The notes under the pieces are model-generated. The model was not told the DNA's origin and did no database searches. It worked only from the letters and a program-made list of their open reading frames with translations. Of a stretch of 36,829 nt of DNA, positions 112 to 9,826 are shown one piece after another (positions within the stretch are counted from its first letter, which is position 1; every line of letters starts with the position of its first letter). The position numbers and the translations under genes are program-made. The DNA is from Deltaproteobacteria bacterium (GTDB taxonomy: Bacteria > Desulfobacterota > Deferrisomatia > Deferrisomatales > JACRMM01), in contig JACRMM010000014.1 of assembly GCA_016214985.1 (NCBI GenBank), forward strand, positions 42,450 through 79,278, read 5' to 3'.

Positions 112-130
112 CCCCCACCTTGGGTGGGGG
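112..130. repeat. GC-rich hairpin at the 5' edge of cas8
   Basis: CCCCCACC, a TTG loop, then GGTGGGGG form a perfect 8-bp stem. The hairpin contains the first possible GTG start (124) of the cas8 frame. There is no T-tract, so it is not a standard intrinsic terminator. A very similar hairpin (CCCCCGCC-TTT-GGCGGGGG) lies near the other end of the window after slyX, so this may be a dispersed extragenic element. Its function is unknown. Confidence 0.45.
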
Positions 131-1494
131 TCTGTGACTATGTGCCTGACAAGGCACCGAAACACGAGGCCGCTACCTGCCCGCTTTGCGGGTCCACGCA
201 CGTGGCGCTATACCCGAACGCAGTAAAGGGCGCGGGGTTCAACTTCTCCAACGTCAACAGGGCCGGTGCCTTCCCTGGAATGGACCTCGCAGGGGCATGG
301 AAGGGCTTCGGCCTCTGTGTGGACTGTTCCGACTCGCTCTACGTCTTTCATCACCATGTGCTCAACCAGTTCGTCGGGAGCGTCGCTGGCGAGAAGGCGC
401 TCGTGTTCCCCTCGTTGGTCGGCCCCGAGGAAGCCAAAGCACGGTTTCTGACCGACTGGAAGGCCTATGTCGATGGCGTCCAGGCGGGCCAGGTGAAGTC
501 CCGGGAAGCCGAGTTACTGGAGTTCTGCGCCACGCGAGAAGATGCCCAGGTGGTCACCCAGATCCTGTGGGCGAAATTCGGGCAGGACGTGGACGACGTT
601 CGGGGGTGCATCACCGACATACTACCCTCGCGGCTTCAGGAACTCATCGGGCATAACAAGGCAGCCAACGGCTGGTCCCACGCACTCGCCCCACGGCAGC
701 ATCTAGACGAAGGGGAGTTCGACCTTTCTCTGAGCTGCCTGCGCGGCCTCTTCTTTCGACCCGGCGGCAAGAGGGTTACGAAAAGCAACGCGAGCCAACG
801 GCTGTTCGAGCTGAAGAGACAGATCATGGAAGCTTTGTATCACGGGCAACAGCTTGGGACTGCCACGGAAGCCGTTTGGAAAGAAGTTCTGGCCACAGTA
901 GAGGCGTACTTGGCCGAAGCGATGAAGACCGGCAAGACCGGGGGACTACTGCGTGAGGGTGCTGGTGCTAAGAGCGGATCCGCCAAGAAGCCTTGGACCG
1001 GGACCTTCGCGAGTTGGCTCCGGCATGTGGCCCGATTCCTTTACTACCTCGACTGCGCGGAGGTGCTGCCCATGGGCGAGAACGACTCGATCTATACACC
1101 CCGGATGGAGAAGCTGCGACCCTACTTCGAGAAGGGCTCCGGGATCGACTCCCTGGAGAAGGCCTTCGCCTTCACGCTTGGAGTCCTGTACGGGAAACTC
1201 TTGCAGGTGCAGGCTGCCCGGAGAGTCAGCCCCGCACTTACTTGGCTCAAGCGCCTGAACCTCTCGGGGCGGGACCTGCCCGAGCTATACGTGAAGATTC
1301 GAGAGAAACTCTTGACCTATGGGACCGAGGCGAACGAGGGCGTGCGTGAGCTCATCCGGGAACTGGGAGAGTTGGGCGCGCGGCTGGGCGACAACATCTC
1401 GCTCGGTTCGGTTCCGACCTGCTATTTCTTGCTGCTGGGACAGTCCGTCGCGCTGGAGATCTTGCCGTCGAAGGAGAAGGGAGAAACCGCATGA
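124..1494 (+). CDS. cas8b: Cas8b (TM1802/Csh1-like) Cascade large subunit, possibly N-terminally incomplete
   Basis: Probable large subunit of a type I-B Cascade, the role that in this family covers PAM recognition and Cas3 recruitment. Counting from GTG 124 the protein has 456 residues. A zinc ribbon with C19/C22 and C65/C68 fits TM1802-type Cas8 proteins, and the next genes are cas7 and cas5. In that family the ribbon normally lies well inside the protein, after a sizeable N-terminal region; here it is almost at the start. The frame has no stop back to base 1, so the true N-terminus may lie upstream of the window or have been separated by a frameshift. GTG 142 is an alternative start. The stop overlaps the cas7 start (ATGA). 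The remaining sequence is poorly conserved, so the name rests on the ribbon and the gene order. Confidence 0.75.
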   Translation: MGVCDYVPDKAPKHEAATCPLCGSTHVALYPNAVKGAGFNFSNVNRAGAFPGMDLAGAWKGFGLCVDCSDSLYVFHHHVLNQFVGSVAGEKALVFPSLVGPEEAKARFLTDWKAYVDGVQAGQVKSREAELLEFCATREDAQVVTQILWAKFGQDVDDVRGCITDILPSRLQELIGHNKAANGWSHALAPRQHLDEGEFDLSLSCLRGLFFRPGGKRVTKSNASQRLFELKRQIMEALYHGQQLGTATEAVWKEVLATVEAYLAEAMKTGKTGGLLREGAGAKSGSAKKPWTGTFASWLRHVARFLYYLDCAEVLPMGENDSIYTPRMEKLRPYFEKGSGIDSLEKAFAFTLGVLYGKLLQVQAARRVSPALTWLKRLNLSGRDLPELYVKIREKLLTYGTEANEGVRELIRELGELGARLGDNISLGSVPTCYFLLLGQSVALEILPSKEKGETA

Positions 1495-2528
1495 GCGAGC
1501 AACGGGGGCCGGAGACACTGTCGAGCCGGCGCGAGATCCTCTTTCTTTACGATATCCGGATGGGCAACCCGAACGGAGACCCGGACGAGAACCGTCCTCG
1601 CGCACTTCCCGACGGACGGTTCTATGTGACCGACGTGCGGCTCAAGCGGTTTGCGCGAGACTACGTTGCATGCCAGGGCAAGGAGATCCTCGTTGCAAAC
1701 ATCGAAGGGCGAACGACGAATCTCACAGGTCGGGTGGCCCACTACCTGGAGAAGATCGGGAAGCCCAAGGCTGACGGGTTGGAGTTGGTCGACATCCTCG
1801 TCGGTGCGTTTATCGACGCGCGCTGGTTCGGGTCCTCTTTGGCCTTCAAGGAGCGGGACGGAGACGCGGCGGACTCGCCGACTCCCGAAGGGGCGACTCG
1901 AAAAGGTTCAAAGTCCAAGAATCAGGAGGACTGGAAGCCGAAACCTATTCCAAAGACGCTGACGGGCGCTGTGCAGTTCAATATGGGTGAGGTGCTCCAT
2001 GAGGCACAGGAACTCCTGATCCCTGGCACGTCTGTGTTCGGCAGCAAGGAGGAGAAGGGCCAAGGGACGTTCACGAGCTACGCCGCCCTGCGCTACGGGC
2101 TCGTCGCCTTCCACGGCGTGGCAAACGAGCACAGCGCGAAGAAGTCCCGGATGACCAACGCAGACTACGAAGAGCTGCTGAAGGCGCTCTGGAACGGCGT
2201 GCGCTCGGCTGGGAACACCCGGACCAAGGTGGGCCAGGTGCCGCGGCTGCTGGTTTCAGTGGAGTACAACCCGGGTGAGGAGTTCCAGTTCGGGAACCTA
2301 ATGGACTACGTCCGCCTGGAAGCCGCCGACGGCAAGCCGCAGAAGGAGTGGGCCAAGCCCGATGACTATGTGGTCGACCTCACCCTTCTCTTGAAGAGAT
2401 TGGAGGGACAGAAGGGGCGCATCCAGCAAGTGCGATTTGAAGTGTCGCCGGACCTGTGTTTCAAGAAGGAGGCAGAGATTCCCACAGGGTGGATGTCGTT
2501 GCGGTTCGACGCCCCCTCCGCCGGCTAG
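1491..2528 (+). CDS. cas7: Cas7 (Csh2-like, type I-B) backbone subunit
   Basis: RAMP-fold protein that polymerises along the crRNA as the Cascade backbone. The 345-residue length fits Csh2. Diagnostic motifs are visible: NPNGDPDENRPR at residues 26-37 and a TDVRLKRFARDY segment at about 47-58, both hallmarks of the I-B Cas7 family. The ATG overlaps the cas8 stop by 4 nt and follows a purine-rich GGGAG site, which implies translational coupling. The cas5 start follows 3 nt after the stop. No disruption is visible. Confidence 0.93.
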   Translation: MSEQRGPETLSSRREILFLYDIRMGNPNGDPDENRPRALPDGRFYVTDVRLKRFARDYVACQGKEILVANIEGRTTNLTGRVAHYLEKIGKPKADGLELVDILVGAFIDARWFGSSLAFKERDGDAADSPTPEGATRKGSKSKNQEDWKPKPIPKTLTGAVQFNMGEVLHEAQELLIPGTSVFGSKEEKGQGTFTSYAALRYGLVAFHGVANEHSAKKSRMTNADYEELLKALWNGVRSAGNTRTKVGQVPRLLVSVEYNPGEEFQFGNLMDYVRLEAADGKPQKEWAKPDDYVVDLTLLLKRLEGQKGRIQQVRFEVSPDLCFKKEAEIPTGWMSLRFDAPSAG

Positions 2529-2531
2529 GCC

Positions 2532-3248
2532 ATGGACGTCCTGTCCTTTCGTTGGCATGCCAAGTATGGGCACTTCCTGAAGGCCGAGGCCAATCGGAAT
2601 GCCCTGACGTACCCCGTGCCGCCGCGGACGGCGGTGTTGGGACTCGTGGCGGCGATCATCGGCCTGGAGAAAGACCAACTGGCGTTGGACCTCGCGGGCA
2701 CGCTGGTTTCCGTAGCCGGGGCCGTGCCTCGGAAGTTCTGGCACAAGGTGAAGCTCCGGAAGGACCCGCCGGCGCCGCTGCCCTGGGAAGTTCGCAGGAA
2801 TCAGAAGGGTGGCGAGGGAGCGCCGGAGAAGGCTGCGCTCGTCCCGCAGGAGTGGCTGCTTCAGCCGGAGTTCGTGGTGAGCGTCGCCCTTCCAGAGAAG
2901 CCGGAACGCTTCGCCGAGCTCGTCGAGCGTGTGCGTGACCGGCGCTGGCATTTCTCGCCTTGTATGGGGCTCTCCGAGTTCCTGGCCGACGTCGAGTTTC
3001 TCGGGGTCGAGGAAGGGCAGAAGCTCCCGAAGAGCCGGCTGTGGGTCGGGGGCTACTGCCTTGCCGCCGAGGTCCGCCTCTTCGGGGAACCGGGTCTCGG
3101 CGTTCAGCTCATCCGGTTGCCCCGGCACGTCTCCCCGGATCGAGTGTTCACCCACGACAGCTACTACCTGGAGCATCGGGGCCGTCCCTTTCCCGTTGAG
3201 ACCGAGGCGGCGTGGCAGGTGGGCGAGCGCGTATTGACGTTCTCATAG
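2532..3248 (+). CDS. cas5: Cas5 (type I-B, Hmari-like) Cascade subunit
   Basis: RAMP protein expected to bind the crRNA 5' handle at the foot of Cascade. The 238-residue length is normal. The N-terminal segment around residues 18-42 has the Cas5 signature of a polar strand followed by YPVPPRTAVLGLVAAIIG, the typical 'P-rich turn then helix' of Cas5h. The ATG lies 3 nt after the cas7 stop. The cas3 GTG follows 11 nt after its stop, behind an AGGAG that overlaps the cas5 stop. The placement between cas7 and cas3 supports the call. Confidence 0.9.
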   Translation: MDVLSFRWHAKYGHFLKAEANRNALTYPVPPRTAVLGLVAAIIGLEKDQLALDLAGTLVSVAGAVPRKFWHKVKLRKDPPAPLPWEVRRNQKGGEGAPEKAALVPQEWLLQPEFVVSVALPEKPERFAELVERVRDRRWHFSPCMGLSEFLADVEFLGVEEGQKLPKSRLWVGGYCLAAEVRLFGEPGLGVQLIRLPRHVSPDRVFTHDSYYLEHRGRPFPVETEAAWQVGERVLTFS

Positions 3249-3259
3249 GAGCTTAGCGC

Positions 3260-5602
3260 GTGCCTGACCTCCTCTCCCACTACGACCCGCACTTGAGACT
3301 TCGGGAGCATCTGGAGGACGTCCGGTCCGCGGCCTTTCATCTCCTCTCCAGTCACTCCTCGGTCGTGCGCGGGAGACGACCGAGGACAGAGGCCGTTCTC
3401 GAGGCTGCCGTGCGGTGCCACGACATCGGCAAGGGCAGTCCCGGCTTCCAGCAGTACATCGCCGATCCGCCGCACTACCGCGGTAGCGCCAGGGCGAAGG
3501 AGCACTCGGGGCTTTCCTCTGCCGCGGCGATCCTCTGGGCGCGGCGCGAGGGATGGGCGCCGCTTCAGGCGCTGACCCTCGGCGCGATCGTCGCCGGCCA
3601 CCACGCCGGGTTTCCCGTGGCGCACCGTCTGCTCGATGAGCGCCTTCGGTTGGACGATGAGGACGTGTTGGATAGCCAGTGGCAGGGTCTTCCCTGGGAT
3701 ACTCTCGAGGGGGAAACGGGCTTGCAGTTCAACCGGGGAATGGCTTTCGAGGACGCTCGGAGCTGGCTCGCGTGCCAGGCTCGGGTGGAGGAGGTCCTGG
3801 GCGCTCTTCCTCGCGATGAGGCACTTCGCTTTCGGTTCTGGGTCCAGTTCCTGTTCTCCATCCTCTTGGAAGCGGACAAGGCCTTTCTTGCTTTGCGGGA
3901 CGCGGGTGTCGCCAAGTACCTGGCCACAACGGCGCGAGAAGTCGGGCCGGAACTGGTGGACCGCCGGCTTCAGCTGTTGCCGGATACCCCGGCCAACGAG
4001 GTCCGTCGGCGCGTGCGGAGCCAAGTCGTTCGTAACTTTGCCCCCGAGGACGCCTGCTGCACGCTGACGCTGCCCACCGGCGTCGGCAAGACCTTGCTGG
4101 CTGCGTCGTGGGCGCTCGCAATGCGCTCCGCTATGGGGAAACGCTGCGGCACGGCGCCCAAGATCGTCGTGGTGCTTCCGTTCCTGTCGGTGGTGGACCA
4201 GACGGAAAGGGAGTACCGGCTGCTGTTAGGCCTCGGGGACGATCCCGGCGTGCAATCGGACCTCCTCATGGCAAGCCACTCGGTCTCCCAACGAGAGTAC
4301 GAGTTGGAGGGCGAGCGCCTGGGGACCAGCTATTCCGAGTTCTTCCTCGACACCTGGCGCTCGCAGATGGTGGTCACCACCTTCGACCAACTCCTCCTCG
4401 CGCTGTTCTCTCCGAAGACCCGTCACCAGATGCGGTTCCACCAGCTTCTGGACGCCGTGGTCGTCCTGGACGAGGTACAAGCCCTCCCGTGCCGCCTCTG
4501 GAGCTTGGTGGACGAGGGCTTTCGTGCGTTGACGCGGGAGGGGAACACCAAGGTCCTCATGATGTCCGCCACACAGCCGGGCATGCTGACCGGTGCACGG
4601 GAACTCGTAGGCTCGCCCGACGCTGTGGCCGACGTCTTCAGCCTGCTGCGGCGCTACCGGATCCGCCTGAACCATCGTGCAGCGGTGCCGCTCGCTGACT
4701 TCATCGAGGAGTTGGGGGATCGGCTGAAGGAATGGCTGCGAGACAAGTCTCGAGTCCTCTTGACCTTCAACACCCGGGCCGCTGCAAGGAGGGTCTGGAA
4801 GACCCTGGCCAAGGAGAAGACCGGCAGGGTTCCCGTCCATCTCCTCTCAGCGGACGTGGCGCCTCTCGACCGCCTGGACAAGATTGCGAGCATCAAGGCA
4901 GGCCGCCCCTGTATCGTCGTGTCGACCCAGACGGTGGAGGCCGGCGTCGACATCGACATGGACCAAGTGATCAGGGACTTTGGCCCCCTGGACGCCGTCG
5001 TTCAGATCGCCGGCCGGTGCAATCGAAACAACCGCATGGGCGAGCACGGCGGCAGGGTCGAGCTCGTCCGCCTCCTGTCGGACAGGGGAAGGCCATACGA
5101 CGAGATGGTCTACAGGGATGGGATTCTCCTCCAGGCAACGCATGAGGTCCTCGAAGGCCTGGAAGCGGTCCCAGAAGAGGACGTCTTGGAACTGGGTCGG
5201 CGGTACTTCGACCTTCTAAAGGCGCGAAAGAACGCGGGGGCGGAAATCACTGATGCCTTCGCCTATTGGAAGGAGATTCCGGACGTCCACGAGCTCCTTC
5301 GCGGAAAGGACCGGCGGCAGGTGTCCTTCCTCGTGCTGGAAGATGAAGAGGCGGCGCGCCTTCGCAGCGACATCGAAAGCGCTCTTGCTTTGTCTGATCG
5401 GTGGGAACGCCGCACTGCGCTGAGACGGCTCGCCGGTGACGTCCAGCTTCGAACCGTCTCGATCTATGCGCGCCCCGACCTTCACCCGGAAGAGTTTGCG
5501 GATCTCGTCGGCCCGTTCTGGGTGTTGCGACCTGGCTGGTATACCCCGGAATCGGGTCTTGACCTGAAGCTCGACGAGGAGAATCCGGTTTGCATCTTCT
5601 AG
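3260..5602 (+). CDS. cas3: Cas3 HD nuclease-helicase
   Basis: Effector nuclease-helicase that degrades DNA after Cascade binding. The 780 residues hold both domains in the usual order. The HD nuclease part has H7, the H54-D55 pair, H82 and H114/H115. The SF2 helicase part has Walker A LPTGVGKTLL at about 271-280, Walker B DEVQ at 404-407, SAT at 436-438, and motifs V/VI with TQTVEAGVDID and QIAGRCNRNN at about 557-591. All catalytic motifs look intact. The GTG start is supported by AGGAG 8 nt upstream. The 3' end overlaps the cas6 TTG start by 13 nt. Confidence 0.96.
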   Translation: MPDLLSHYDPHLRLREHLEDVRSAAFHLLSSHSSVVRGRRPRTEAVLEAAVRCHDIGKGSPGFQQYIADPPHYRGSARAKEHSGLSSAAAILWARREGWAPLQALTLGAIVAGHHAGFPVAHRLLDERLRLDDEDVLDSQWQGLPWDTLEGETGLQFNRGMAFEDARSWLACQARVEEVLGALPRDEALRFRFWVQFLFSILLEADKAFLALRDAGVAKYLATTAREVGPELVDRRLQLLPDTPANEVRRRVRSQVVRNFAPEDACCTLTLPTGVGKTLLAASWALAMRSAMGKRCGTAPKIVVVLPFLSVVDQTEREYRLLLGLGDDPGVQSDLLMASHSVSQREYELEGERLGTSYSEFFLDTWRSQMVVTTFDQLLLALFSPKTRHQMRFHQLLDAVVVLDEVQALPCRLWSLVDEGFRALTREGNTKVLMMSATQPGMLTGARELVGSPDAVADVFSLLRRYRIRLNHRAAVPLADFIEELGDRLKEWLRDKSRVLLTFNTRAAARRVWKTLAKEKTGRVPVHLLSADVAPLDRLDKIASIKAGRPCIVVSTQTVEAGVDIDMDQVIRDFGPLDAVVQIAGRCNRNNRMGEHGGRVELVRLLSDRGRPYDEMVYRDGILLQATHEVLEGLEAVPEEDVLELGRRYFDLLKARKNAGAEITDAFAYWKEIPDVHELLRGKDRRQVSFLVLEDEEAARLRSDIESALALSDRWERRTALRRLAGDVQLRTVSIYARPDLHPEEFADLVGPFWVLRPGWYTPESGLDLKLDEENPVCIF

Positions 5603-6291
5603 CTCAGGTCCCCTACGCTGCCGTGGAGCTTCACTGGTCCGCGCCGGTCCTCGGTCCGGCGCACCTGCGGGCGCGGCAGCTCCGGGGAGCGCTCGCGGCT
5701 GCCTTCGGCGGCGACGACCTCTTCCACCAGCACGACGCCGCGGGACGGGCGCTCTACCGCTACCCTCGCGTCCAGTACCGGTGGCACCGCGGCTGCGGGG
5801 TGGTCGTCGGCTGGCAGGAAGCGGCCGAGAAGCTCCTGAACCTGCCCTGGCTCGACCTGGCGCTCCGCCTCGGCGCGGACGAGGCGACCGTGGCCGAGGC
5901 GCACCTGGCGACGACCGGCGGAACGTTCGGCTGGGACGACCGGCTCCGGTACTACCGCTTCGGCAGCCCGGTGCTCCTCTTCAACCAGGAGAACTACGCC
6001 CGCTACCAGACCATGAAGCCGGAGGCGCAGCGGCGCGAGCGCGACCGGCTGCTTGTCGCCCAGACCCTCGTGGCCCTGCGCGAGCTCGGAGTGCGCTTCG
6101 AGGGCCGGCTGTACGCGGCCTTCGCAGGCTTTCGAGCTCAGGTGTGCCGGTACAAGGAACAGGATCTGCTGGGGCTGACAGGGTGGTTCGTATCCAACGC
6201 CGTCCTTCCGACGGGCTTCGCCTTCGGCCACGCGGTGAGCCACGGCTACGGGTGGATCGCGCCGCTCGACGAGGAGGCGGATGGGGAGTAG
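5590..6291 (+). CDS. cas6: Cas6 (Cas6b-like) crRNA-processing endoribonuclease
   Basis: Likely cleaves the pre-crRNA within repeats. The 233 residues resemble the Cas6b family: an N-terminal RxxRGALAAAFG stretch, a YRYPRVQYRW segment with a following glycine-rich strand near residues 57-75, and a C-terminal LPTGFAFGHAVSHGYGWI glycine-rich motif. The TTG start at 5590 is chosen because GAGGAG lies about 7 nt upstream and the first strand needs these residues; GTG 5623 is the alternative. It overlaps the cas3 end by 13 nt. Catalytic residues cannot be assigned safely in this divergent family. The gene is followed by a reverse-strand higBA remnant rather than by cas4/cas1. Confidence 0.85.
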   Translation: MHLLAQVPYAAVELHWSAPVLGPAHLRARQLRGALAAAFGGDDLFHQHDAAGRALYRYPRVQYRWHRGCGVVVGWQEAAEKLLNLPWLDLALRLGADEATVAEAHLATTGGTFGWDDRLRYYRFGSPVLLFNQENYARYQTMKPEAQRRERDRLLVAQTLVALRELGVRFEGRLYAAFAGFRAQVCRYKEQDLLGLTGWFVSNAVLPTGFAFGHAVSHGYGWIAPLDEEADGE

Positions 6292-6342: not shown

Positions 6343-6573
6343 TCACGGGTCGGTGATCTCCGCAACGTGCTCGTCTTCGTACTTCTCGATCAAGACGCCG
6401 AGGACTTCCATGAACGATGCCAGCGGGTGGCTTTCGTCTTCGCCAATCTGGTCGATCAGGGCATCGAGCAGGCGCACGGCTTGTCGGTACTCCTCTTCCG
6501 TGTGCGGCACTTGGAGAGCTCCTGCGATCTTTGGGCAGACGGCCCTCACGTCTTCCAAGCTTGCGGCGAGCAT
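6343..6573 (-). CDS. HigA-like antitoxin lacking its HTH domain (remnant)
   Basis: A 76-residue acidic protein. Its second half (residues about 25-72, EEEYRQAVRLLDALIDQI then LIEKYEDEHV) resembles the N-terminal region of HigA-type antitoxins. Full HigA proteins continue with an XRE helix-turn-helix that binds DNA. Here the frame stops straight after the YEDEH segment, and the 50 nt left before cas6 encode no HTH in any frame. It starts 3 nt after the end of the higB reading frame, the usual toxin-first higBA order. It opposes the cas genes. It is either a truncated antitoxin or a minimal toxin-binding form. Confidence 0.6.
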   Translation of the reverse strand: MLAASLEDVRAVCPKIAGALQVPHTEEEYRQAVRLLDALIDQIGEDESHPLASFMEVLGVLIEKYEDEHVAEITDP

Positions 6574-6576
6574 AGG

Positions 6577-6863
6577 CTACTCCTTCCACGTGCCCCGGTC
6601 GTACTCCGGATGGGTCAACACGGCTCGCATGTATGCCTTCTCGCGGTTGTAATGTATGGCAGCCACGGGTCGAGCCTTGTTCCCTCCGATGTTGAACACT
6701 GTCAGCTTACCGACTTGGTCCACGCCGGAGAACGTACTTCGTACGTCGGCAAACGAGGAGAAGACTCCCTTCTTCATGAGGCGGTACCAGTGCTGGAGAG
6801 CGGATTTCGCTCTGGATGCGCCTCGACGAAGTCGTTGAGCCTCTTTCGGGTGATGACATGCAT
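6577..6863 (-). pseudogene. higB: Frameshifted HigB-type mRNA interferase toxin
   Basis: From the ATG at 6863 (GAGGA about 7 nt upstream) the protein reads MHVITRKRLNDFVEAHPE, the standard HigB N-terminus. It then runs out of frame near 6805-6815. The next frame continues with AKSALQHWYRLMKK, SFADVRSTF, KLTVFNIGGNK, AIHYNREK and VLTHPEYDRGTWKE, all typical HigB motifs. The total of 287 nt is one base short of 96 codons, so one deleted base explains the break and the intact toxin would have had 95 residues. The gene faces against the cas operon. A sequencing error or programmed frameshift is possible, but inactivation is simplest. Confidence 0.8.
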
Positions 6864-6953: not shown

Positions 6954-8012
6954 ATGAACCTGGTGCTCACGACCTTCGGCGCTTACCTGCACCGAAAGGG
7001 CGAGATGTTCGAGGTCAAGGTCGGAGAGGAGCGCCGGGAGGTGTCGGCCCGGAAGGTGCGCTCCATCTGGATCGCGACCGGGGCGACTCTTTCGACCGAC
7101 GCCGTCGAGCTGGCCCTGGAGAAGAACATCGACATCGTCTTTCTGGACAAGTTCGGCGACCCCATCGGCCGCGTGTGGCACGGCCGGCCGGGCTCCACGA
7201 CCGCGATCCGCCGCCGGCAGCTCCGGATCGCGGACACCTCGGAGGGGCTTCGGCTAGCGCTGTCCTGGGTGCTCCGGAAGCTCGACAACCAGATCGGCTT
7301 CCTGGAGCAGGCTCGCGAACGAAGGTCTCGCCTCTCCGGCGAGCTCACCGAGACGATCCGCTTCCTGCGGGAGGGCCGCGCGGACGCGACCGCAATCGAC
7401 GGACCGCTGGACGACGTGCGGGGCCGGATCCTCGGCCTCGAAGGCCGGGCGGCCCGCGCCTACTGGACGGCGGTCAACTTGCTCCTGCCCGAGCGCTTCC
7501 GGTTCGAGGCGCGCTCGCGCAACCCGGCGAAGGACGAGTTCAACTGTCTGCTCAACTACGCCTACGGCGTCCTCTACGGGACGGTCGAACGGGCGTGTGT
7601 CCTGGCGGGCCTCGACCCCTACGTCGGGTTTGTCCACACCGACCACTACAACAAGCCCTCGCTCGTCTTCGACCTGATCGAGTGCTACCGGATTTGGGCC
7701 GACGAGACGGTGGTCGGCCTCTTTGCGGCAAGGGACGTGAAACAGGACATGTTCGAGAAGCTCGCCAACGGCTTCACGCTGAACAAGCAGGGCAAGGGCG
7801 TGCTCATGGAGCGCTTCGGCGCCCATCTGAGTGAGACCGTCCGCCACCGGGGACGAAACGTCCAGCGCCGAGAGGCGGTGCAGCTCGACTGCCACCGGAT
7901 CGCCAACGACCTGATATCCCCAGGAGGAGGGGATGGTCAGCGGCCCGGCGCGGATGTATCTTGGCCGGAGCCGGAGGATGAAGGCATCCCAGAAAGGGAG
8001 AAGGCAACATGA
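6954..8012 (+). CDS. cas1: Cas1 spacer-acquisition integrase
   Basis: Catalytic subunit of the Cas1-Cas2 integrase that inserts new spacers at the leader end of the array. The 352 residues hold the expected N-terminal beta domain and a helical catalytic domain. The metal ligands appear as E163 (LEGRAARAYW), H228 (GFVHTD) and E243 (FDLIE), with D240 nearby. The conserved NYAYGVLYGTVE and GLDPYVGFVH segments are intact. The ATG is preceded by a strong GGGGAGGGG. The stop overlaps the next ATG (ATGA), which begins an antitoxin gene instead of cas2. The C-terminus runs about 40 residues past the conserved HRIANDLI segment. Confidence 0.96.
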   Translation: MNLVLTTFGAYLHRKGEMFEVKVGEERREVSARKVRSIWIATGATLSTDAVELALEKNIDIVFLDKFGDPIGRVWHGRPGSTTAIRRRQLRIADTSEGLRLALSWVLRKLDNQIGFLEQARERRSRLSGELTETIRFLREGRADATAIDGPLDDVRGRILGLEGRAARAYWTAVNLLLPERFRFEARSRNPAKDEFNCLLNYAYGVLYGTVERACVLAGLDPYVGFVHTDHYNKPSLVFDLIECYRIWADETVVGLFAARDVKQDMFEKLANGFTLNKQGKGVLMERFGAHLSETVRHRGRNVQRREAVQLDCHRIANDLISPGGGDGQRPGADVSWPEPEDEGIPEREKAT

Positions 8013-8197
8013 ACACCGCAAAGGACGAAGTACGACGCCTGTTGGAGGACCTTCCCGACAGCGTGTCGCTGACCGACATCCAGTACCACATCGACGTGCA
8101 CCAGAAGATTGAACGGGGACTCGACGATCTTTCCGCCGGCCGGACGTTCACGGAGCAGGACTTCGGCAAGAGGATGTCGAAGTGGCTCGAAACATAG
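8009..8197 (+). CDS. Small type II antitoxin embedded between cas1 and cas2
   Basis: A 62-residue protein resembling the small antitoxins usually encoded just upstream of RelE/ParE toxins. It has an N-terminal helix (VRRLLEDLPDSVSLTDI), a central QYHIDVHQKIERGLDDL segment, then a GRTFTEQDFGKRMSKWL tail typical of the toxin-wrapping end. The ATG overlaps the cas1 stop by 4 nt, with GGGAGAAGG upstream, so it is translated with cas1. Its 3' end overlaps the toxin remnant by 16 nt. Length and motifs look intact, so it probably outlived its toxin. No DNA-binding motif can be assigned. Confidence 0.75.
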   Translation: MNTAKDEVRRLLEDLPDSVSLTDIQYHIDVHQKIERGLDDLSAGRTFTEQDFGKRMSKWLET

Positions 8198-8340
8198 TCT
8201 GGACGGAAGCGATGACCGTGGACGAAGTCGGCGTCCTGGTGTTCGTCCATGGAGCCCGTGACCTACCCTCCCTGCTCAAAGGGCAAGGCCGCGTGCTCGT
8301 CGCGCCGGCCGAGATTGGACGAAGGAAGGCGCGTCGGTGA
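8182..8340 (+). pseudogene. Internally deleted RelE/ParE-type toxin
   Basis: The 52 residues combine a RelE/ParE N-terminus (VARNIVWTEA) with what looks like a RelE/ParE C-terminal strand (VGVLVFVHGARDLPSLL), without the roughly 45-60 residues of core normally between them. The family is usually 85-100 residues long. The frame stays open, which suggests an in-frame internal deletion. GTG 8182 follows AGAGGA by about 6 nt and overlaps the antitoxin; the TGA overlaps the cas2 GTG (GTGA). The toxin is probably inactive, but the frame may persist because it couples cas2 translation to the upstream genes. A new short protein cannot be excluded. Confidence 0.6.
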
Positions 8341-8642
8341 AGCAAACGGAGACGCTCGTGTGGATCATCTACGACATCTCCGTCGACAAGAAGCGGGGGA
8401 GGGTGGCGAAGCTCTGCAAGGAGGCCGGACTCTACCGGGTGCAGAAGTCAGTGTTCTTGGGCACCATCGAGCGCAATCGGCTCGACGAGCTCTTGATGCA
8501 GGTAGAGGGTCTCATCGACACGGTCACCGACTCGGTCTATGCGTTTCCCTTGTGCCAGCCCGACTTCAAGAAGGTCATTACCCTGGGGCAGGCGTTCGAC
8601 GAGAAGCTGGTGAACGACGAAGTCCGGATGCTCTTCGCATGA
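8337..8642 (+). CDS. cas2: Cas2 adaptation protein
   Basis: Structural partner of Cas1 in spacer integration. The 101 residues have the ferredoxin-like Cas2 pattern: a first strand ending in the conserved aspartate (WIIYDIS, D13), then KRGRVAKLCKEAGLYRVQKSVFLG. The GTG start at 8337 overlaps the toxin remnant stop by 4 nt and has AAGGAAGG upstream. The end overlaps the cas4 ATG by 4 nt. The separation from cas1 by a TA pair is unusual, since cas1 and cas2 are normally adjacent. Confidence 0.94.
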   Translation: MKQTETLVWIIYDISVDKKRGRVAKLCKEAGLYRVQKSVFLGTIERNRLDELLMQVEGLIDTVTDSVYAFPLCQPDFKKVITLGQAFDEKLVNDEVRMLFA

Positions 8643-9253
8643 TCGAGACGCAGATGCTGTCTGACACCGAGACCACGCCGATGCTCACGCCTTCGGAGGT
8701 GATCGAGCACGTCTTCTGCCCGCGGTTCACGTGGTTCATGAACGTGCAGAAGATCTCGCAGCACGAGGACTCCCGCTACAAGGTGCTCAAGGGACGCGAG
8801 GTCCACGCGAGGCGCGAGACCGAGAACAAGGCGTACCTCCGGCGAAAGATCGGGGTGGCGGCGAAGGAGCTTAGCGTCTATCTGGCTTCGCCGAGCCTTC
8901 GGATGAGGGGCGTTGTCGACGAGGTGCTCACGCTAAGCGACAGCACCATGGCTCCGCTGGACTACAAGTACACCGAGCACCAGGGCACGGCGTTCAAGAC
9001 GCATCGCATCCAGGTTCTCATGTATGCGATGCTGGTCCGGGAGAGCTACGATGCGGCCGTGACTCGGGGGTACGTGGCCTATATCCGAGGCAGCCATCAG
9101 GTGGTAGAAGTACCTCTTTCCCAAGGGGCCGAAGCCGAGGTACTGGGCATCGTCGACGACATCTTCGAGATCATCGGAACGGGGAGATTGCCGAAACGCA
9201 CCGCCCATACGGTCCGGTGCCGGGACTGCTGTTACGGAAATATCTGCGTGTGA
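8639..9253 (+). CDS. cas4: Cas4 RecB-like Fe-S nuclease of spacer acquisition
   Basis: Trims prespacers and helps select PAM-proximal ends in type I-B adaptation. The 204 residues show C27 near the N-terminus and a C-terminal C194/C197/C203 group for a 4Fe-4S cluster. RecB-type active-site residues are H56, D94 (GVVDEV) and D108-Y-K110. The ATG overlaps the cas2 stop by 4 nt. The open frame upstream of 8639 is a shadow of cas2, so the start is taken at the overlap. Cas4 lies after cas2 here; in most I-B loci it precedes cas1. Confidence 0.93.
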   Translation: MIETQMLSDTETTPMLTPSEVIEHVFCPRFTWFMNVQKISQHEDSRYKVLKGREVHARRETENKAYLRRKIGVAAKELSVYLASPSLRMRGVVDEVLTLSDSTMAPLDYKYTEHQGTAFKTHRIQVLMYAMLVRESYDAAVTRGYVAYIRGSHQVVEVPLSQGAEAEVLGIVDDIFEIIGTGRLPKRTAHTVRCRDCCYGNICV

Positions 9254-9426: not shown

Positions 9427-9826
9427 GTCCAAGAGGTAGATCCATCACAACAAGGATTGAAACATTGCAAACAAGCACACGCAGTTCACCGAGGCAGACG
9501 TCCAAGAGGTAGATCCATCACAACAAGGATTGAAACAAAAATCCCCTCACAGCCCCATCCCCTTGGCCCGGCGGTCCAAGAGGTAGATCCATCACAACAA
9601 GGATTGAAACACCAGCGCCGTGTCAAGTACTGTGAGCCCCGTGTTGTCCAAGAGGTAGATCCATCACAACAAGGATTGAAACCATTGAACCGACCTACGT
9701 CGAAGTCGGCCCAGGAGGTCCAAGAGGTAGATCCATCACAACAAGGATTGAAACACCGATAGTTGCGTCAGAGTGTAGGAACTGGCAGGGTCCAAGAGGT
9801 AGATCCATCACAACAAGGATTGAATC
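9427..9826 (+). CRISPR. CRISPR array, 6 repeats and 5 spacers
   Basis: Repeats of 37 bp begin GTCCAAGAGGTAGATCC and end AACAAGGATTGAAAC. They start at 9427, 9500, 9574, 9646, 9718 and 9790. Five are identical; the last carries A to T at position 36 (GAATC instead of GAAAC). Spacers are 36, 37, 35, 35 and 35 bp. The repeat has only a weak internal ATCC/GGAT pairing. Transcription is predicted left to right, with crRNAs carrying an ATTGAAAC handle. No spacer matches another place in this window that I can see. The array is short for a complete cas set. Confidence 0.98.

Follow-up and report, generated by a model that had tools for sequence, protein, structure and literature searches.

Why does a CRISPR-cas operon carry a toxin-antitoxin (TA) pair between cas1 and cas2, and what is left of the pair? 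The question is raised by a 36,829-nucleotide stretch of DNA, here called the window (positions 42450-79278 of contig 1, which has 351,713 bases, in a draft genome of 5.6 Mb in 72 contigs). Its operon runs on the forward strand in the order cas8(part)-cas7-cas5-cas3-cas6-cas1-62 aa-52 aa-cas2-cas4-array and contains the gene set of a type I-B operon, with its array. The interference genes cas8 (part), cas7, cas5, cas3 and cas6 occupy 124..6291 (Pfam and NCBIfam assignments). They are followed by cas1 (6954..8012, 352 aa; PF01867, E 3e-78; TIGR00287), cas2 (8337..8642; PF09827, E 1e-19; TIGR01573), cas4 (8639..9253; PF01930; TIGR00372) and a CRISPR array of six 37-nt repeats, the last of them degenerate (9427..9826; repeat detection, letters read). 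Cas7 was of the Csh2 type and over the cut-off, while Cas8 and Cas5 were under the NCBIfam I-B cut-offs and over the Pfam ones. Only part of Cas8 (124-1494) lies inside the window, and its family match starts only at position 189; an N-terminal part is likely to be found upstream of the window, past a short unread stretch.

The genes around the insertion form an unbroken chain of overlaps, just as the initial annotation had described it from the DNA. The stop codon of cas1 and the start of the 62-aa frame share ATGA (4 nt), the 62-aa frame overlaps the 52-aa frame by 16 nt, the GTG start of cas2 overlaps the stop codon of the 52-aa frame in GTGA, and cas2 and cas4 share ATGA. Shine-Dalgarno-like stretches were found before the 62-aa frame, the 52-aa frame and cas2 (-6.6 to -8.4 kcal/mol; -7.9 for cas2). 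They are suggestive only, because none passes the 5% point of random 17-mers (-9.5 kcal/mol; median -3.6).

To what family does the first inserted gene (8009..8197, forward strand) belong? A genome scan with the 62-aa protein gave 13 loci. L001-L011 and a second copy from the window's own genome (L015, G000:C42) aligned over 62 columns, of which 15 were invariant; L012, cut by a contig end, and L013, whose frame was unlike a family member, were left outside the alignment. The window's copy, itself one row, is open and fills all 62 columns. It matched the family profile with 106.9 bits over positions 1-61 of 62 (listed matches, 31-119 bits) and was altered at E22 and Y29, both of them nearly invariant in the family. 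At E 1e-6, family members were present in 76 of 395 genomes of the phylum and in 62 of 204 genomes from the order of L004 (Sedimenticola). Neither the 62-aa nor the 52-aa product had a Pfam match or an NCBIfam match above cut-off, and the same held for the antitoxin family members scanned (window, L001, L005 and L015; L110 with Pfam only). The structure model of the 62-aa protein showed three helices (pLDDT 81), with no solved-structure match at E 0.001, and a sequence search gave no clear relative of a solved structure.

The neighbours of the homologues identified the pair as a TA module, in agreement with the initial annotation. They stand before ParE toxins of about 100 aa, with PF05016 detected in the four that were scanned and in L110. 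Of the family loci L001-L012 and L015, 13 in all, ten share the -16 toxin start; the misses were L003 and L004, with no accepted start codon there, and L012, at its contig end. In L010 the frame continues into other sequence. The intact toxin of L001 matched the solved ParE-type toxins 6x0a and 5cw7, the latter from paaA2-parE2. As in the type II systems parDE and paaA2-parE2, the toxin family is PF05016 and the antitoxin gene comes first and overlaps the toxin gene. Unlike in those systems, the window's toxin lacks its core, the antitoxin has no Pfam or solved-structure match, and the pair lies inside a cas operon.

Directly downstream of the window's antitoxin we found not a ParE toxin with a PF05016 domain but its two ends only (8182..8340, forward strand). 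When aligned to intact toxins, the 52-aa frame consists of about ten N-terminal residues (MARNIVWTEA) joined to the C-terminal strand with HGARDL. The HGAR motif begins at residue 23, compared with residue 88 in L001 and L015, and about 65 residues are therefore gone from the remnant. A profile made from 56 toxins upheld this in-frame loss of the core, which had been read earlier from the letters: among stop-free positions in six frames of the window, the N-terminal nine residues ranked first of 65,008 and the C-terminal 16 first of 59,384. Because both pieces ranked first, chance is a poor explanation of the frame, and a chance ORF was rejected. We also rejected an unrelated intact family, the finding that would have spoken against the earlier assignment: a homology search of small reach, having a single candidate, gave only the window's own product, Pfam had no match for the frame at E values as high as 10, and neither Pfam nor NCBIfam pointed to another family. 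In a leave-one-out comparison with intact toxins, no more than 3 of 50 (N-terminal piece) and 1 of 43 (C-terminal piece) scored lower than the remnant. As nearly all intact toxins score higher, the remnant's pieces look drifted, which is expected for relaxed constraint. The structure model of the 52-aa product had no confident fold (pLDDT 53).

An assembly or sequencing artefact could be suspected in a draft genome, and a frameshift like that of HigB (see below) can be a sequencing error. The last 42 aa of the remnant are also a listed protein on four contigs, the longest of 12,826 bases, and the antitoxin is listed on five, the window's included. These four contigs differ from the window's own (12,826 versus 351,713 bases), which argues against an assembly slip, with the same sample as a possible common source; the HigB break has no such support. 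We consider an artefact at the cas1-cas2 joint extremely improbable.

A second module, absent from the initial annotation, was found on the opposite strand between cas6 and cas1 (6343-6863) and resembles HigBA. The HigB-like toxin gene (6577..6863) has a clear HigB domain (PF09907, E 3e-25 for the downstream frame), but its first ~19 residues are in another frame than the rest, so that the gene is not open in one frame from its start. This break could be a sequencing error. The HigA-like antitoxin frame (6343..6573, 76 aa) was compared by eye with a HigA-like frame of the same genome (L048) and stops before a stretch present there, which we take to be the HTH half. In L048, used as a control, both the HigB and the HigA-like frames are open. 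Because the window's HigA-like frame had no Pfam match, its identity rests on position and resemblance.

With both modules of the window broken, the pair at the cas1-cas2 joint might be plain decay: neutral junk, neither relay nor antidote, headed for loss. The place of the remnant in the low tail of the intact-toxin scores fits this, and so do the two altered antitoxin positions and the frequency of broken toxins in the family. The toxin was not open in one frame in 13 of 67 distinct antitoxin loci, the window's included (at least 330 nt downstream were required; shorter, incomplete and duplicate loci were dropped). An internal stop was present in the toxin of L076, one of two antitoxin loci of G010, which is the sole genome sampled from the window's family. 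However, the frames at the joint have all stayed open with their overlaps kept, and the score of the antitoxin falls among those of its relatives, making plain decay decidedly unlikely.

We then compared the joint in relatives. The earlier statement that cas1 and cas2 are normally adjacent held throughout: no gene lay between them in any of the 42 other joints measured. In all 26 I-B-type Cas1 relatives cas2 directly follows cas1, with spacings between -38 and about +93 nt. The gap is 8-53 nt in each of the 16 I-C loci measured, one more locus having no cas2 in reach. The 26 relatives comprised eight from the phylum (E 1e-60), one from one order, 16 from another order and one from a class sample (E 1e-100); the looser Cas1 matches L017, L018 and L027 were excluded. 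A full toxin at this joint, which the initial annotation had proposed to look for in relatives, did not appear in any of the 26 close ones. The search, made via Cas1, covered 395 phylum genomes, class sets of 12 and 369, order sets of 47 and 210 and 7 handle genomes (partly overlapping sets). Instead, L110 has a full-length pair of the window's antitoxin family at another joint, that between cas7 and cas4.

This locus came from a scan for cas genes in flanks of up to 1.5 kb, using the Cas1 profile and the window's Cas proteins as probes, which other cas genes could escape. One of the antitoxin loci L051-L109 had cas genes nearby (L088) and none of L001-L012 did. L088 belongs to L110 (G511:C84), a 9.9-kb contig with a type I-C operon in one direction: cas3, Phd-PIN, cas5, cas8, cas7, DUF4258-MqsA, antitoxin-ParE, cas4, cas1, cas2. 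It thus holds three TA modules in total, with the window's antitoxin family and a full-length ParE between cas7 and cas4. A relative, L150 (Cas1 78% identical to that of L110), carries a Phd-PIN pair at the same joint as L110 (57% and 50% identical). Its cas7-cas4 joint is 22 nt wide compared with 1067 nt in L110; the two are the empty and the filled version of one joint.

A search with the L110 Cas1 at E 1e-120 gave 17 I-C loci in 210 genomes of that order, one locus per genome and L110 included. TA-type genes over the Pfam cut-off were found in 11 of the 17 (L110, L150, L151, L152, L155, L156, L157, L158, L159, L160 and L163), the NTP_transf_2 gene of L151 being a weaker case. L153 has a HicBA-like pair (locus not scanned in full) and, on the opposite strand, L161 has a HicB-like gene that stays below cut-off; none was recognised in L154, L162 and L164, and L165 was too short. 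By joint, TA genes were found at cas3-cas5 in two loci, at cas7-cas4 in seven and at cas4-cas1 in four (two loci counted twice), so that three of six joints were occupied; none lay at cas5-cas8, cas8-cas7 or cas1-cas2 in the 17 loci. These figures describe a pattern and a count, not an enrichment. In L155, L157 and L160 a DUF433 gene is present for which the forward frames offer no partner before the next cas gene is reached; DUF5615 is the toxin partner of DUF433. We counted DUF433 as TA-type on the strength of PMC4963859 and PMC1462988, where it appears among TA components.

Wider flanks were surveyed in 19 of the 26 I-B-type relatives (L112-L130). Between cas6 and cas1, L128 (G130) has TumE and nucleotidyltransferase genes and L129 (G240) an AbiEii-type pair; elsewhere the joint holds Uma2 in L117 (and, by its protein, in L116) and DUF29 in L126. 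The cas6-cas1 joint of L128 and L129 is the one that holds the HigBA-like pair of the window. A 104-aa frame of no recognised kind was seen between cas2 and cas4 in L117.

Some of these elements have been noted before. PIN, COG2442 and HicB/HicA were listed in 2006 as loosely associated with cas genes (PMC1462988); in its accessible part that list gives neighbours only, whereas the modules described here lie inside the operon chain, at particular joints, in the window between cas1 and cas2. CreTA (type VIII) is likewise a TA unit within a CRISPR-cas locus and guards that locus, but it consists of RNAs with the toxin repressed through Cascade, according to PMC12737573, while the window's pair consists of protein genes and its toxin is broken. 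Solo toxins and antitoxins are reported to make up >50% of genes in the largest families (PMC2701414). The window's pair resembles solo antitoxins in having an antitoxin without a working toxin, and differs from them in its place within an adaptation operon and in the toxin remnant, which has kept its frame. PMC3150331 and PMC9939771, in the sections available, treat Cas1 and Cas2 as proteins and not the genes placed between them. Within the accessible portions of the open-access literature, we came across neither a type II module described at the cas1-cas2 joint nor the joint pattern.

We favour the reading that a ParE-type module sits at the cas1-cas2 joint, that its toxin, with about 65 residues missing from the centre, is predicted to be inactive, and that the module probably survives only as an intact antitoxin gene and a short translated bridge into cas2. 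Because a related intact pair sits in the CRISPR operon of another bacterium, the window's pair is likely the worn-out remains of a cas-operon guest. A TA module of the kind repeatedly seated in cas-operon joints would have landed between cas1 and cas2. Loss of the toxin core would then have abolished toxicity, removing the danger together with part of the extra length. The leftover overlapping open frames would keep ribosomes moving from cas1 to cas2, as a translational relay. Many relatives have a cas1 that overlaps cas2 or comes close to touching it, and the window's chain would replace this contact, with Cas1 and Cas2 still made together. As the frames were left open, cas1 and cas2 likely stay translationally linked. 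Before the loss of the toxin core, the pair is best read as a TA module seated at the tightest joint, either as a passenger or as a guard; it may once have guarded the adaptation genes.

The observations in favour of a disarmed module bridging to cas2 are the unbroken overlaps, the family and toxin identity of the parts with the core absent, the profile test, the low scores of both pieces, the poor fold of the 52-aa product, the empty joint in relatives, L110 with its intact pair and L150, and the 11 of 17 I-C loci. Against it, the intact stage at the cas1-cas2 joint was seen in no relative examined, broken toxins are ordinary in the family, and the antitoxin is altered at E22 and Y29. The data do not require the relay, because an in-frame outcome is expected in about one third of cases without selection and a GC-rich stretch stays open easily. 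Moreover, cas2 may not need a relay, since it has a Shine-Dalgarno-like stretch of its own.

Could the antitoxin be kept for another purpose? As a captured antidote, a solo antitoxin would neutralise the ParE of plasmids and other elements that CRISPR destroys, preventing post-segregational killing; the initial annotation had allowed for a role against foreign toxins. The appeal of the idea comes from a report that TA systems of plasmids put plasmid-borne CRISPR at a disadvantage during transfer (PMC12945316). Both modules of the window combine a broken toxin with an open antitoxin frame, DUF433 stands partnerless in three I-C cas operons (L155, L157 and L160), and anti-addiction by chromosomal antitoxins is discussed in PMC2701414, although a reviewer there doubts its biological meaning. 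The sequences gave the idea no support: antitoxin relatives occurred in one of 72,556 plasmid records (39% identity) and in none of 50,697 phage records, collections that were searched for the antitoxin only and sample environmental elements thinly, and none of the five spacers had an exact match in a viral collection. In addition, nearly invariant residues are changed in the window's copy, and the family in any case often loses its toxin while the antitoxin stays open (13 of 67). A captured antidote therefore appears quite improbable.

Type II antitoxins often bind DNA. The protein might thus have become a transcriptional regulator of the adaptation genes that binds an operator inside the operon, a role proposed for solo antitoxins in PMC2701414. 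However, no DNA-binding domain was recognised in it, its three-helix model is without a solved-structure match, and its place inside a coding chain leaves scant room for a separate promoter. We regard this role as very unlikely.

A broader proposal would take type II TA modules as recurrent, ordered guests at the joints between cas sub-modules that addict the cell to the operon. The window would then be an end state at the forbidden cas1-cas2 joint, with the toxin excised and the antitoxin captured as a cas-operon antidote against addictive plasmids. Taken as a whole, this is unlikely. The loci bear on whether, beyond CreTA, addiction modules inside cas operons keep these operons in genomes: L110, with three TA modules whose genes are all open, and the solo antitoxin-type loci make guard, passenger and antidote directly testable. 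Modules were seen between sub-modules but never at the cas1-cas2 joint of the other operons measured; if this rule holds, it would show which cas genes need co-production.

Finally, the Cas1 protein upstream of the insertion has an unusual end. It is 352 aa long, compared with 325-343 aa in the 26 relatives, and its C-terminal tail exceeds that of most relatives seen by about 27 aa. Among 119 other Cas1 homologues listed, of 2492 found, P0004 (81% identical) was by eye the single one with a similar tail; long tails of different sequence occur in a few more. P0004 is a Cas1 homologue on a 10-kb contig and shares the tail pattern DG-R-G-DV...EDE with the window. Since its tail resembles that of the window, the P0004 locus may hold the same insertion.
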